Positions 55,922 to 60,402 of a stretch of DNA of 64,000 nucleotides are shown in pieces. The notes under the pieces are model-generated. The model was given only the letters and a program-made list of their open reading frames with translations, ran no database searches and was not told the origin of the DNA. Numbering within the stretch: the first letter of the stretch is position 1; the number at the start of each line of letters is the position of its first letter. The DNA comes from Exiguobacterium sp. s146 (GTDB taxonomy: Bacteria; Bacillota; Bacilli; Exiguobacteriales; Exiguobacteriaceae). The position numbers were made by a program, and so were the translations under genes. Location of the stretch: positions 186,001-250,000 of the forward strand of contig NZ_JACSMA010000003.1 in the NCBI RefSeq assembly GCF_018618415.1. The letters are read 5' to 3'.

Positions 55922-55958
55922 GTGAAAGGCAGAGGGCGACCTCTGTCTTTCACTCATT
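55919..55958 (+). terminator. Terminator after htpG
   Basis: AGTGAAAGGCAGAG / CTCTGTCTTTCACT stem (one wobble), loop GGCGAC, then CATTAAAG. Confidence 0.75.
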
Positions 55959-55970
55959 AAAGTTGATATG

Positions 55971-56018
55971 AAAAAATCTCTAGTCACGATTTTTCCCGTC
56001 GCGACTAGAGATTTTTTA
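55971..56018 (-). terminator. Terminator after the methyltransferase gene
   Basis: AAAAAATCTCTAGTC / GACTAGAGATTTTTT, 15-bp perfect stem with a 17-nt loop; a T-rich tract lies on the minus-strand 3' side. Confidence 0.75.
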
Positions 56019-57350
56019 TTTGAAGTTATTATACGTACCTAACAGCTGCATCTGAATCGCTTCCTGCAAAATACCTTTATCATCCTCTTGCTCATGAACC
56101 TCTGCGATTCGATGGCTCATCCGCTCAATCAATCCGACGACGAGGGCATTCCCCATCGTGAAGTAACGTTTGCGGTCCGTCATCGTACCCGTCCATCCGT
56201 AAGGGAATCCGTTTAGTCCCTCGCACTCTTCGGGACGAAGATAACGGAGTCGTTTCGTCTGTGGATCTTCGATGACATGGCTCGAGCGGTTGCACGTGCC
56301 TTCGCTCGTCAACATCGTACGGCCTGGAAGGTCAAGCGAGTCCGGATACGACATACCACCCTCTGCGTACACATACACGTGACCACTTGCCGAGGTCCGC
56401 TCGATTTTCTTCGGCCCTTTCAAGTAAGCCAACTCTTCCTGCTCGTTTCGACCTGACTTTTTAATCGTCTCGGTGTCCAAATAATACTGCTCTGGTGCAG
56501 GGCCGAACTGCTCATAGACTTCTTGGACCACTTCACCGAGCGTCTTCGGCACTTCTCGTTTCGGTAATGTTTCAATCGTTGTCACCTTGTCGCCCGACAT
56601 GATTCCCGCATTGCGGTATGTGGCTGAGAACGTATCGGAAATCTCAACGATGTCTTTCGGCAGTTCGAACTGTGAGCCTGGATGTTTCTCGCTCGTTAGT
56701 TCATGGACAGGGAATGCCGGTGCGAAGAATCCTGACTCGAGCAACCACTCCTCAGGGTTTGCCTGTTGAGCACGTGCCGAATGATTCAGGTCGGTGCGGG
56801 TCGCGAAGATGAAGATGCGACGACGGCGTTGCGCGAACCCATAGTCAGCCGCATTGATGACACGCCATTCGACCGTATAGCCTTGGTCGGCGAACGCACG
56901 TAACATGACACTGAAGTCACGTCCCCGTTGTTTGGCAGGCGATTTCATGAGTCGATCAACGTTCTCAAGCAACACGTAAGGCGGTTTCTCCTGCTCGATG
57001 ATGTTCATGATTTCCCAGAACAAGACGCCCTTCTTCCCTTGGATCCCTTGCTCGTTTTTGAGGCTGCGTGAGACGCTATAGTCCTGGCAAGGGAAACCAC
57101 CGACCAACAAGTGGTGCGGGCCCGCCTCCATCCACGAGAGGGCGATGTCTTCATTCGAATGTATCCCGCGGTCTTTGAACCGTTCGGCGTAGCAATCGAA
57201 GGCCGGTTGACTCTTCGTCGCCGGTTCCCATTGATTGCCCCAAACTACATCGAATTTGTCCGATGTAGGCTCGGCATTCACGTCTTTAATTCCTTCAAGT
57301 GCGATGCGGAAACCTCCTACACCAGCAAATAACTCAACTACTTTAATCAA
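56016..57350 (-). CDS. DNA (cytosine-5) methyltransferase
   Basis: 444-aa C5 methyltransferase, modification enzyme of the neighbouring restriction system. Motif I is VELFAGVGGFR, motif IV VGGFPCQDYSVS with the catalytic Cys, motif VI PPYVLLENVDRLM, motif VIII AQRRRRIFIFATR; the C-terminal GYFTMGNALVV-like RYFTMGNALVVGL holds motif X. Target recognition cannot be read, but pairing with a Sau3AI-type nuclease predicts GATC. The TTG at 57350 fits AAAGGGTG better than the GTG at 57359 and starts MIKVVELFAG. Its base composition is like the host, unlike the adjacent nuclease. Confidence 0.88.
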   Translation of the reverse strand: MIKVVELFAGVGGFRIALEGIKDVNAEPTSDKFDVVWGNQWEPATKSQPAFDCYAERFKDRGIHSNEDIALSWMEAGPHHLLVGGFPCQDYSVSRSLKNEQGIQGKKGVLFWEIMNIIEQEKPPYVLLENVDRLMKSPAKQRGRDFSVMLRAFADQGYTVEWRVINAADYGFAQRRRRIFIFATRTDLNHSARAQQANPEEWLLESGFFAPAFPVHELTSEKHPGSQFELPKDIVEISDTFSATYRNAGIMSGDKVTTIETLPKREVPKTLGEVVQEVYEQFGPAPEQYYLDTETIKKSGRNEQEELAYLKGPKKIERTSASGHVYVYAEGGMSYPDSLDLPGRTMLTSEGTCNRSSHVIEDPQTKRLRYLRPEECEGLNGFPYGWTGTMTDRKRYFTMGNALVVGLIERMSHRIAEVHEQEDDKGILQEAIQMQLLGTYNNFK

Positions 57351-57413
57351 TGGGAACACCCTTTCGCATTTTCTATCTTAAATTTAATTCATTTACAGTA
57401 TTTTCTCAATGAA

Positions 57414-57496
57414 AACAGTTTACCACCTATATAAAAAAGGATCAAGCCCTGGTTAATTAATTCTCGAAAATCACTTTTGATCTATAGTAAACTGTT
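57414..57496. repeat. Inverted repeat pair in the methyltransferase-nuclease intergenic region
   Basis: AACAGTTTAC (57414-57423) and its exact complement GTAAACTGTT (57487-57496), 63 bp apart, lie between the divergent starts (57350 and 57526). They are placed like two copies of an operator for the divergent promoters. No controller-protein gene is seen nearby. Confidence 0.4.
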
Positions 57497-57525
57497 AATC
57501 ATAACCATTAAATGGAGGGATATTG

Positions 57526-58857
57526 TTGTTAAAATTTAATTCAATCGACGAACTTTTAAATAAGACAAGTGAAATTGTAGGTAAGACCTTCAAAGAACTC
57601 GATTCAAATAATTATTTTGATAAATCTTCCAATGATAAGGGGATTCTCGGCAAAATTGTAGAGACCGGATTCTATGGATATCCAAACAACAATAGGGCAG
57701 AAGCAGATTTCGATGAATTAGGGGTCGAATTAAAAGTTTCTGGGTTTACTGTGACTAAAAAGGGACTTTGGTCAGCCAAAGAACGGATTTCACTTTCCCA
57801 AATCAATTTCAACAAAATCGTAGACCAAGAATTTCAATATAGCTCTTTGATTTCAAAGAACCGAAAAATTTTGTTCATCTGGTATGAGTTTGTGAAGGGC
57901 GGAGACCCTAAAGATTTCGTAATCCGTGATTACCAATTATACGATATGACGGCAATTGAACCTGTAATTGAAAAGGACTACCTCATCATCCAAGATTTCG
58001 TACGGAAAGGACTCGCCCATAATCTATCCGAGGGAAATAGTGTTATTTTGGGGGCGGCGACTAAAGGGGCTTCTGGACAAACACAAATTCAGCCTTATTC
58101 GCCCATCAAGGCCAAAACGAGAGCCTTTTCCATTAAAAACTCATTTATAAAAGGTGTGTTGAAAGAACATCGCGCCAACTATGAGTTGATTCTTCCAAAA
58201 GAACTTACACCAGAAGAGTGGCTATGGAATCGACTCAAAAAGTTTAAAGGGATGACTCAAATCAATATCCTTAAAACTGTTGATGCTCATTCCGTAAAAG
58301 ATACTATCCCAAAAGGTATAGGTGGAATGATACAAAAACGTACAATTGGTGATGAAGAGGATCTCGAAAAAGTAGAACTCTTTAACAAATTGACATATAG
58401 AATCAAAAGCATTCCAATCAATCCAAATTACTACCCCCTGGAAAAGGCAACTTTTAAAACACTTCATAAAGAGGAGTTTCAAGATGAGTGGGATTCTTCT
58501 GACTGGAAATTATTTTTTGAAGAGAGTACCTTTTTTTACGTTGGTTATCTAGGAGAAGATAAATCAATAAAAAACGGACACAGAAAATTAGAATGCCTAT
58601 TCAAAGTCACATTTACTCCTGAGGAGATTGAAAGTTTCGAAAAAACATATAAACAAATTCAATTTGCAATTGCCACAAATGATATCTCGTCCTTACCTAC
58701 CGCAACCAGATGTCCTAACTCTCCCCTTGTTATTTCTACAAAGGGTGGAAAAGGCGATTCTTGTTATGAAACATTTATGAGCGGTGGTAGAAAAACCTGC
58801 TTTATGTTCAATAAAGATTTCTTATTCAAAAAGTTTCAGCAATCGATGATGAACTAG
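57526..58857 (+). CDS. Type II restriction endonuclease, Sau3AI/MutH family
   Basis: 443-aa endonuclease expected to cut at GATC. Counting from the first TTG (57523), the MutH/Sau3AI active site is complete: Glu47 in GILGKIVETG, then Asp62, Glu69 and Lys71 in ADFDELGVELKV, giving the exact D-x6-E-x-K spacing. The C-terminal half probably is the second, inactive MutH-like domain of Sau3AI. GGAGGGA spacing favours TTG 57526 over 57523. The gene is visibly AT-rich with AT-ending codons, unlike its neighbours, pointing to recent transfer. It is divergent from the methyltransferase gene and upstream of vsr. Confidence 0.85.
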   Translation: MLKFNSIDELLNKTSEIVGKTFKELDSNNYFDKSSNDKGILGKIVETGFYGYPNNNRAEADFDELGVELKVSGFTVTKKGLWSAKERISLSQINFNKIVDQEFQYSSLISKNRKILFIWYEFVKGGDPKDFVIRDYQLYDMTAIEPVIEKDYLIIQDFVRKGLAHNLSEGNSVILGAATKGASGQTQIQPYSPIKAKTRAFSIKNSFIKGVLKEHRANYELILPKELTPEEWLWNRLKKFKGMTQINILKTVDAHSVKDTIPKGIGGMIQKRTIGDEEDLEKVELFNKLTYRIKSIPINPNYYPLEKATFKTLHKEEFQDEWDSSDWKLFFEESTFFYVGYLGEDKSIKNGHRKLECLFKVTFTPEEIESFEKTYKQIQFAIATNDISSLPTATRCPNSPLVISTKGGKGDSCYETFMSGGRKTCFMFNKDFLFKKFQQSMMN

Positions 58858-58932
58858 TCTCGAACACGTTAAATTGATGATTTATTAAAGTTATCGGGAA
58901 TACTCTCTTTAATGGATTAAGGAGGAGAGGGT

Positions 58933-59379
58933 ATGGCCAAAAATGTACCGAAAGCATCGAGTCCAGCCGTCTTCAAGACGATGAGCGGCAATCGCGGCAA
59001 GGACACGAGGATGGAAGTAAAGGTCCGAAAAGCACTTTGGGCTGCCGGATATCGATATCGGAAGAACAATCGGAAGCTGTATGGAACACCGGACATCTCG
59101 TTTCCGAGACTCCGTGTCGTCGTTTTCTTGGACTCTTGCTATTGGCATGGCTGCCCCCTTCACTTCAAACTTCCGAAGACGAATGCCGAGTTCTGGCGTC
59201 AGAAAATCGGTCGCAACATCGAGCGGGACGCCGACGTCACACGACACTATGTCGAAGAAGGATGGGTCATCCTCCGGTTCTGGGAGCATCAGGTCAATGA
59301 AGATTTCGATCACGTGATTTATACCATCACCCATTTCGTAGACATGGCCAAAAACAACCGTCACGTCCGGAGCGGTTGA
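58933..59379 (+). CDS. vsr: Very short patch repair endonuclease Vsr
   Basis: 148-aa mismatch endonuclease nicking next to T:G mismatches that arise when 5-methylcytosine deaminates. MSGNRGKDTRMEVKVRKALW, YGTPDISFPRLRVVVFLDSC (catalytic Asp in TPD), YWHGCPLHFKLPKTN (zinc Cys/His) and WVILRFWEHQV are family hallmarks. AAGGAGGAGAGGGT precedes ATG 58933. It is 75 bp downstream of the Sau3AI-type gene and may be co-transcribed. It supports the C5 methyltransferase of the system. Confidence 0.93.
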   Translation: MAKNVPKASSPAVFKTMSGNRGKDTRMEVKVRKALWAAGYRYRKNNRKLYGTPDISFPRLRVVVFLDSCYWHGCPLHFKLPKTNAEFWRQKIGRNIERDADVTRHYVEEGWVILRFWEHQVNEDFDHVIYTITHFVDMAKNNRHVRSG

Positions 59380-59393
59380 TCAGCTGTCACCTT

Positions 59394-60260
59394 TCAATCC
59401 AAGTCTTCATCAAACAATGGCTCATCATAAGTTTCTGTTGCATCATCGACAATCTGGTTCGTGTAGAATCCTTCTACACGGCCTCTTTTTTTGCCCTTTT
59501 CATTAAAATGCTCGACAATCCTGAACGTGTCGGGTGCTTCAAGCCCGATGATGACGATTGGTACGGTCAACTGAGTGTTCAACGGCTTCAAATGGTGGAC
59601 ATATTTCTCATATGTACCGATGGCGTTATCGAAATTTCCGGCCCGCTGAAGTCTTTGGGTCGCACAAATAATCACACCAATCCGTGTTTGGATGGCCTTC
59701 TCGACATGATTCAATTCGCTCGCAATGACCGGTTTCAACAGATTCCACGCAATCGTTCCCGAATGGTTGAAACCTACTTCCAGCGAGATATTCTCTTTTG
59801 CAAAATCGAGACGCCACACATTCTCTGAATAGTCACGGTCTTGGAAGATTGGACTTTCGCTGGCCCATCCTCTCTTTGAAAACTCTGATTTGAATAAATC
59901 ATTCAAGGTCGAGGACAGACTTTTATTCTTGTCCGCATACTTCTCTTCGAATTTTTGAATGATGTCATCATCACTTATAGAATGTATGATGTCATGAATT
60001 TCTCTCCAAATCTCTGTGAACTCCTCATCATTTTTAAGTATTGTCTCCCCGAAGCGATGTGAATGGATTCGATAGTTCAACTGTCTCACCCTTTCATATG
60101 TAATTGATAATGATGTACTTCGTGACGAGAATAATCGACTTTCCTTCACTCGATTCAAACTCTCGCCACTCCTAATCACTTTATCAGGATACAGGATTGA
60201 AAACAAAAACACATTTATTTTGTAATCGCTTTCTTTCCTTTCATCAAGCGTTTTATCCAT
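59394..60260 (-). CDS. BglII/BstYI-type restriction endonuclease homologue
   Basis: 288-aa protein resembling the BglII/BstYI endonuclease family. Asp152 and Glu161 in RLDFAKENISLEVGF keep the D-x8-E spacing of the BglII active site; the usual Gln two residues on is Gly163. FKSEFSKRGW, the NHSGTIAWNLLKPVIA helix and the late strand VPIVIIGLEAP match the family order. BglII (AGATCT) and BstYI (RGATCY) sites contain GATC. It is convergent with vsr (14-bp gap) and AT-rich like the Sau3AI-type gene. No methyltransferase gene of its own adjoins it. The ribosome binding site is weak; a palindrome lies just upstream. Confidence 0.68.
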   Translation of the reverse strand: MDKTLDERKESDYKINVFLFSILYPDKVIRSGESLNRVKESRLFSSRSTSLSITYERVRQLNYRIHSHRFGETILKNDEEFTEIWREIHDIIHSISDDDIIQKFEEKYADKNKSLSSTLNDLFKSEFSKRGWASESPIFQDRDYSENVWRLDFAKENISLEVGFNHSGTIAWNLLKPVIASELNHVEKAIQTRIGVIICATQRLQRAGNFDNAIGTYEKYVHHLKPLNTQLTVPIVIIGLEAPDTFRIVEHFNEKGKKRGRVEGFYTNQIVDDATETYDEPLFDEDLD

Positions 60261-60265
60261 TTAAC

Positions 60266-60279
60266 GTTGATATATCAAC
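60266..60279. promoter_or_regulatory. Palindrome ahead of the BglII-like gene
   Basis: GTTGATATATCAAC, a perfect 14-bp palindrome ending 5 bp before the start codon (60260). It may be an operator, or could hinder ribosome binding. Confidence 0.4.
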
Positions 60280-60340
60280 ATTTTACCAGACATGCAAACG
60301 CCTTGACATTTTTAGCAGGTTATATGAAGTTAGTATTACA

Positions 60341-60355
60341 TTATAATTATTCTAG
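60341..60355. promoter_or_regulatory. PerR-box-like site upstream of ahpCF
   Basis: TTATAATTATTCTAG agrees with the PerR box TTATAATNATTATAA at 12 of 14 fixed positions and includes a TATAAT -10. ahpCF is a classic PerR target. Confidence 0.6.
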
Positions 60356-60402
60356 TAGAGACAAAAGTCCACTAGAGTAAAAAACCAAGGAGGACATATC
60401 CC

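Follow-up and report, generated by a model that had tools for sequence, protein, structure and literature searches.

One C5 methyltransferase probably protects against two exchangeable nucleases, of Sau3AI/MutH and BglII type, in an Exiguobacterium restriction island

Introduction

The restriction enzymes BglII and BstYI read AGATCT and RGATCY, respectively, and are accompanied by the N4 methyltransferases M.BglII and M.BstYI. Here we describe an island in a 64,000-nucleotide stretch of the Exiguobacterium sp. s146 genome (contig NZ_JACSMA010000003.1, positions 186,001 to 250,000; 'the window') which carries the gene of a C5 DNA methyltransferase (M), a Sau3AI/MutH-like nuclease gene, a vsr gene and the gene of a predicted BglII-fold nuclease that we call BglG. 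The closest described systems pair a C5 methyltransferase with Sau3AI or its homologues. According to the available text of PMC10305163, DCM2 of Metamycoplasma hominis, paired with a Sau3AI homologue, produces GAT5mC (5mC, 5-methylcytosine), as found by nanopore and digestion; in the available text of PMC5608340, GAT5mC blocks Sau3AI. For LlaJI, promoter control through recognition sites is reported in the accessible part of PMC11779793.

As in the Sau3AI and Sau3AI-DCM2 systems, the island has a C5 methyltransferase whose relatives adjoin Sau3AI-family genes, and a MutH/Sau3AI-like nuclease with E, D-x6-E-x-K and a likely GATC target. It differs in the additional BglII-fold nuclease and Vsr, and in a Sau3AI-like protein that scores under the curated Sau3AI cut-off. 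BglG departs from BglII and BstYI (PF09195) in the Gly or Ala that replaces Gln as third catalytic residue, in N-H where BglII has S-N and BstYI has G-K, and in its partner, a C5 methyltransferase belonging to the Sau3AI group. LlaJI-type systems, with two nucleases and two methyltransferases, likewise have two nuclease genes each, but their nuclease proteins combine into a single heterodimeric enzyme, accompanied by two methyltransferases, whereas here each nuclease also occurs singly beside a related M. Other C5 systems also carry vsr beside the methyltransferase gene; here Vsr is optional, since only 27 of the 87 M genes compared below have it within 8 kb. A literature search over titles and the beginnings of abstracts found no paper on one methyltransferase serving both a Sau3AI-like and a BglII-like nuclease, which is no proof of novelty, REBASE and most subscription papers being outside its scope.

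Results and Discussion

A four-gene island between htpG and ahpC

The host genome is a draft of 2.85 Mb in 22 contigs, with an estimated completeness of 100%, and the window lies on its contig C13. Between htpG and ahpC the gene order is M (minus strand), Sau3AI/MutH-like nuclease (plus), vsr (plus) and BglG (minus), with the following features:

55951..60091: island between htpG and ahpC; approximate ends, from blastn against five genomes without M
56016..57359, minus strand: M, C5 DNA methyltransferase, 447 residues, GTG start (PF00145 201.6 bits, TIGR00675 211.6 bits, PADLOC MTase_II 522 bits)
57360..57522: 163 bp upstream of both M and the Sau3AI-like gene, which diverge from it, with GATC at 57440-57443 and 57479-57482
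57523..58857, plus strand: Sau3AI/MutH-like nuclease, 444 residues, TTG start, branch 'Sau1' (PF02976, NF040973, structure 4pxg)
58933..59379, plus strand: Vsr very-short-patch endonuclease, 148 residues (PF03852 and TIGR00632 above cut-off)
59394..60080, minus strand: BglG, predicted BglII-fold nuclease, 228 residues, TTG start at 60080
59763..59807, minus strand: BglG active-site stretch D92-x8-E101-V-[G/A]103-F-N105-H106 (alignment A2, 57 rows)
60081..60260, minus strand: open stretch of 60 codons outside the gene, mostly ahpC-upstream DNA (stops in relatives)

In all five genomes without M the match on the htpG side stops at 55950; on the ahpC-upstream side it starts at 60189-60196 in four and at 60092 in the fifth. 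G+C content at 58-60 kb is 0.42, compared with mostly 0.49-0.56 across the remaining window. The named relatives that share the island locus are Exiguobacterium species.

The first-pass annotation, made from the letters of the window, proposed that a single methyltransferase acting at GATC could license both nucleases. We consider it probable that the island is indeed a Type II restriction-modification system whose single C5 methyltransferase, by making GAT5mC, shields the host from the Sau3AI/MutH-like nuclease and from BglG alike. The support comes from genome comparison: M is the sole candidate in three methyltransferase families, related M genes stand beside either nuclease or both, and GATC sites are over-represented in M promoters. 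M would methylate GATC to GAT5mC, and both the Sau3AI-like enzyme and BglG would cut unmethylated incoming DNA, BglG most likely at all GATC sites or at some of them. With one mark serving both, either nuclease could be gained, lost or swapped while M stays.

M passes the family cut-offs for C5 cytosine DNA methyltransferases (PF00145 and TIGR00675), as the annotation had it, its scores being far above chance like those of the other three proteins in their families, and PCQ, ENV and QxRxR, which we take to be C5 methyltransferase motifs, are visible by eye. It is the only PF00145 match in the host genome, where profile searches with PF01555 and PF02086 gave no match. PF02384 does match at three places elsewhere (strongly on contig C17, with 213 bits, and twice weakly on C1), and BglG might be protected by such another methyltransferase or be the leftover of an older system, its adjacency to M being chance or hitch-hiking. 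We regard this as very improbable given the empty PF01555 and PF02086 searches and the company that BglG keeps in other genomes: an M homologue with at least 36% identity is present in 54 of 57 usable BglG loci across several phyla (two partial, at contig ends, L058 and L078).

One methyltransferase and its exchangeable partners

A scan of the genome collection gave 58 BglG loci, one of them a fragment, from Bacteroidota, Bacillota, Actinomycetota, Campylobacterota, Pseudomonadota, Patescibacteria, Planctomycetota and an uncultured marine group III euryarchaeote. The loci without M are L068 (with contig ends near by), L086 and L090. A near-full Sau3AI-like gene is found in 8 and vsr in 14 of the 57 usable loci. 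In the 63 loci of the M tree that have both genes, the median gap between M and BglG is 113 bp (at most 300 bp in 40) and all four arrangements are present. No BglG relative was found in 50,697 phage records at E up to 1e-3; viral contigs yielded four, each with an M homologue. Three small plasmids, of Psychrobacillus, Macrococcus and Staphylococcus simulans, bear both M and BglG, with no Sau3AI-like gene found on any of the three. M together with BglG is thus very likely a restriction system in its own right.

Within the genus, M is present in nine of 19 sampled Exiguobacterium genomes, eight of which have a BglG of the window type. M and Vsr are nearly constant (91-99% and 93-97% identical to those of the window, respectively), and the nuclease sets beside them are Sau1 with BglG, Sau2 with BglG, and Sau2 with BglQ. 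Sau1, the window type, recurs in G013 at 70% identity; Sau2 is a second Sau3AI-like lineage, found in seven Exiguobacterium genomes and about 30% identical to the first. BglQ of G017 (L045:9169-9975) is a different BglII-family protein with E-I-Q (PF09195, 29.4 bits), encoded between vsr and ahpC on the other strand.

We then compared 87 M loci, looking for Sau3AI-like and BglII-like genes within 8 kb of M. The partners were a Sau3AI-like gene only in 17, BglG only in 47, both in 14, a Sau3AI-like gene with BglQ in two, BglG with BglQ in one, neither in four, a Sau3AI-like gene with BglG 10 kb off in one, and a distant BglII-like gene in one; as the loci were gathered by searches for BglG, Sau3AI and M, these counts are not natural frequencies, and since 26 of the 87 have less than 4 kb on one side of M, some 'only' labels may be wrong. 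Three labels were set by hand: L091, with a Sau3AI fragment only, as BglG only; L070, whose Sau3AI-like gene is cut by a contig end, as both; and L188, with BglG about 10 kb off, as Sau3AI-like with distant BglG, which was grouped with the Sau3AI-like rows in the comparisons of M residues and of M promoters below. The combination of M, Sau3AI-like gene and BglG that the first-pass annotation saw in the window recurs outside it, being found also in E. flavidum, Sporosarcina, Kurthia, Eubacteriaceae (Sau3AI-like gene cut by a contig end), Rothia and G318.

On a quick IQ-TREE phylogeny of the 87 M proteins, with only Shimodaira-Hasegawa approximate likelihood ratio test support (below 80 for 23 of 84 inner branches), Sau presence requires 10 changes and Bgl presence 11. 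By label, Sau3AI-like only requires 13 changes (12 forced by well supported branches), both nucleases eight (seven) and BglG only six (five). The labels are nevertheless clustered on the tree. Mixed partners occur within well supported small clades of a Bacillota-rich branch, and one clade of support 97 holds rows with BglG and BglQ, BglG only and Sau3AI-like only. In the other main branch 42 of 43 rows have BglG only, the remaining one being Rothia with both. Duplicates (L101, L107, L174 and L175; L046-L049 equal L024, L027, L022 and L026), the fragment L103, and BglG loci whose M is partial or missing (L004, L005, L058, L068, L078, L086 and L090) were left out of the tree.

Further genes were seen at some of these loci. 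Between M and BglG on the Psychrobacillus plasmid (L002:1489-2490) lies a phospholipase-D-type protein matching the NgoFVII nuclease (PF09565, 41.3 bits), possibly a further nuclease family under the same M. On an E. acetylicum plasmid with an M-Vsr pair (L192) and no Sau3AI-like or BglG gene near by, a protein with AspBHI-N and HNH parts (L192:2910-4022) is encoded on the other strand, two genes from the pair. In six Flavobacteriaceae loci (L069, L072, L074, L079, L087 and L095) BglG and M are convergent and about 640-680 bp apart, which leaves room for a small gene.

GATC in the methyltransferase promoter

That M reads GATC whichever nuclease accompanies it is best supported by the DNA upstream of its gene. 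The intergenic region between M and the Sau3AI-like gene contains GATC in nine of nine Exiguobacterium genomes. We examined 65 M genes of less than 80% mutual identity, with the M start fixed by rule and not by annotation, and took expectations from 723 control regions, which lie upstream of other, mechanically called open reading frames (ORFs) of at least 150 codons in these loci. GATC occurs within 150 bp upstream of the start in 40 of the 65 regions, compared with 14.7 expected (binomial p 1.8e-11), and ranks first of 136 tetramers. It also ranks first in the Sau3AI-containing set (16 of 20 regions, 5.4 expected, p 1e-6) and in the BglG-only set (22 of 42, 8.7 expected, p 6e-6), where all of these p values assume independent regions and the regions are partly related. 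The sites are concentrated at about -100 to -30 with a peak at -60 to -46: GATC is present in 37 of 66 regions at -100 to -30, in 17 of 65 at -310 to -160, and in 23 of 67 and 9 of 67 inside the gene. The pattern persists among 28 M genes of less than 60% identity (18 of 28 versus 8 of 28 further upstream).

A GATC at this position could be an ordinary regulator site unconnected with the specificity of M, and other tetramers, mostly A/T-rich, are indeed enriched as well, as promoters would give. We find this explanation improbable, as the excess of GATC over the control regions is far larger than that of any other tetramer and leads with either partner, and the control palindromes GTAC, CATG, AGCT and TCGA show no peak where GATC does. 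M probably reads GATC both in Sau3AI-containing and in BglG-only systems, and probably as a 4-bp target, because only seven of the 61 GATC sites in the 65 regions are in RGATCY context. In its own promoter GATC probably lets M sense methylation, adjusting expression of M and nuclease.

Comparisons of M are consistent with a shared target. In Mesomycoplasma hyorhinis, the M encoded next to a MutH/Sau3AI gene shares 45% identity with that of the window. Over residues 200-360 the likeness of three Bacillota BglG-only rows (L002, L003 and L052, with L091 left out) to Sau3AI-only rows is 0.53, and among Sau3AI-only rows it is 0.51.

The Sau3AI/MutH-like nuclease

The Sau3AI-like protein belongs to the MutH family (PF02976, 78.2 bits, cut-off 23) and matches the Sau3AI structure 4pxg with E 2.2e-33. 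Its catalytic residues E47 and D62-x6-E69-x-K71 are complete, and E47, D62, E69 and K71 are invariant in alignment A3 (six rows); the 4pxg chain itself carries Ala in the E69 column. The nuclease noted in the first-pass annotation therefore stands as to family and motif, but it is a divergent branch, since its score against the curated Sau3AI equivalog NF040973 (277.4 bits) falls short of the cut-off of 300. Elsewhere in the genus NF040973 scores 290.1 bits in G013 and 518.1 bits with the other lineage in G017. ORFs of about 500 residues on host contig C17 (L170:7653-9197) and elsewhere match the C-terminal half of Sau3AI only, without the catalytic half; two Planococcus-group loci (L050 and L052) have such ORFs as well, at 5-8 kb from BglG.

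BglG has a predicted BglII fold and an unusual active site

The BglII-like gene had been drawn at 59394-60260 (288 residues), which is too long: its first 60 codons are not part of the gene. We place the start at 60080 on the basis of three observations. The frame upstream of 60080 is interrupted by stops in seven relatives of the genus (G001-G004, G010, G011 and G013); most relatives have ATG at the position of the window TTG, G002 and G013 having TTG as well; and window positions 60092-60401 match ahpC-upstream DNA of one genome without the island. The TTG is preceded by AAAGGGTG, which resembles a ribosome site.

BglG scores 46.3 bits against the BglII family PF09195 (cut-off 26), in agreement with the homologue with D-x8-E described from the sequence. 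An AlphaFold2 model from an alignment with 56 relatives has a predicted local distance difference test score of 89.7 and a predicted template modelling score of 0.84. Its top Foldseek match is BglII (1d2i, E 1e-9), and VIA-align gives 19.2 for BstYI, 19.1 for BglII, 16.6-16.9 for BamHI, 15.1 for OkrAI and at most 4.8 for the remainder. As modelled, BglG thus shares the BglII/BstYI/BamHI fold. The annotation had called the folds of the two GATC-type nucleases unrelated, which is too strong, as the available text of PMC4081073 assigns MutH, Vsr and BglII alike to the PD-(D/E)XK superfamily.

The profile pairs D-F-G-K...E-V-Q-F-S-N of BglII with D92...E101-V-G-F-N-H of BglG, so that the E-x-Q of BglII and BstYI proper is replaced. 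Of the 57 rows of alignment A2, 43 have Ala at position 103 and 14, the window included, have Gly, and the invariant columns include D92, E101, N105, H106, N113, K116, P117, N124 and K128; this count is biased because the scan patterns included [GA]FNH or IAWNL, and the 14 rows with the IAWNL pattern, seven of which have Gly and seven Ala, do not lift this bias. Six other PF09195 members have Gln or Glu at this position: EVQ (G024), EIE (G335 and G312), EVE (G271 and G054) and EIQ (G017).

The Gly had raised the concern that BglG is altered in specificity or inactive. Decay is unsupported, because position 103 is Gly or Ala in all 57 rows, and the specificity may still be altered. A protein that binds GATC without cutting it, as a regulator or competitor, would also fit the uniform Gly/Ala, and only E, Q or N are named as replacements of the Lys in the accessible part of the review PMC4081073. 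We nevertheless think an inactive BglG unlikely. D92 and E101 never vary, the fold is intact in the model, and the likewise invariant N105, H106, K116 and K128 could join in catalysis. Moreover, in the 47 of 87 M loci where BglG is the sole nuclease of the two kinds sought, other families being outside the search, a dead protein would leave no restriction.

If BglG is an active nuclease, as we favour, its target may contain GATC and yet be longer than 4 bp (RGATCY, AGATCT or another), and only part of the M sites would then be relevant to it. Its fold relatives BglII and BstYI have such 6-bp targets. The profile alignment also places N105 and H106 at the positions of BglII S97 and N98, the outer-base positions, and their invariance makes a fixed specificity likely. 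The scarcity of RGATCY among the M promoter sites argues the other way, although it is not decisive for the nuclease. A longer target is a serious possibility that we do not favour; as M probably reads GATC, a 4-bp nuclease would match it most simply.

Vsr and base composition

Vsr was correctly identified in the first-pass annotation (TIGR00632, 130.5 bits, cut-off 97.85). It probably repairs T:G mismatches arising from deaminated GAT5mC, a role that is plausible from the family alone; the genome statistics gave the proposed GATC-to-GATT repair no support, as set out below.

Weighing a shared mark

Several points weigh against GAT5mC as a mark common to both nucleases. BglG lacks the residue that is usual at the third catalytic position. 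GATC is missing upstream of M in 20 of 42 BglG-only and four of 20 Sau3AI-containing regions. Over all phyla the likeness of the BglG-only and Sau3AI-only M groups at residues 200-360 is only 0.35, and four positions there are conserved differently between them, so a different target is possible in distant BglG-only systems. A katablepharid M, a predicted GATC reader paired with a MutH-like gene, gave no methylation on testing according to the available text of PMC8099122. In 40-80 kb samples per Exiguobacterium genome, the observed/expected ratio of GATC is 0.50-0.76 where M is present and 0.45-0.63 where it is absent (four samples each), and that of GATT is 1.12-1.31 and 1.18-1.36, respectively. 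As the GATC deficit and GATT excess are alike with and without M, the genus samples have no methylation or Vsr footprint. Nor is avoidance of AGATCT clear, the counts in 19 genomes showing no clear difference (123 in the host genome, 129 in its reversed control). We take neither of these two statistics as evidence.

Taken together, the data allow a fuller proposal, to which we give somewhat less than even confidence. GAT5mC would be a shared licence under which nuclease families are exchanged or stacked. BglG would be a widespread BglII-fold subfamily, uncharacterised in the literature searched, that reads 4-bp GATC and cuts although its active site lacks the usual third residue, whose role invariant N105, H106, K116 or K128 takes; and promoter GATC would couple expression of M and nuclease to methylation. 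That two nucleases are kept for different cutting modes, or as insurance against inhibitors, is a guess. The natural series of related M genes with one nuclease, the other, both, or one replaced offers a way to ask why two stand under one mark, with phage escape, different cutting modes and addiction as candidate reasons. The BglG subfamily is likewise a test case for the third PD-(D/E)XK residue and a possible compact GATC cutter, and self-control of M can be tested directly at the promoter GATC.

Alternative contents of the htpG-ahpC site

Five genomes without M (G005, G007, G009, G012 and G018) have a 271-residue HNH protein between htpG and ahpC (L033:3085-3900 in G012), the HNH part of which resembles PADLOC mREase_IV (45.5 bits). 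Among the 19 Exiguobacterium genomes this protein is found in nine and M in nine, both in none and neither in one (Fisher p 1.2e-4), its placement having been inspected in five of the nine carriers. The M island and the HNH gene are alternative contents of one site in those genomes. Should the HNH enzyme cut 5mC DNA, the two would be incompatible as well.

The htpG side of the island is itself variable. Another HNH protein is found there in G013 (L028:3417-4112, by Pfam) and in G004 (L025, by eye), a UvrD helicase matching GajB models in G002 (L023:1516-4545), and in G017 (L045:1145-5768) a second C5 methyltransferase followed by two ORFs that by eye resemble an ATPase and a response regulator.

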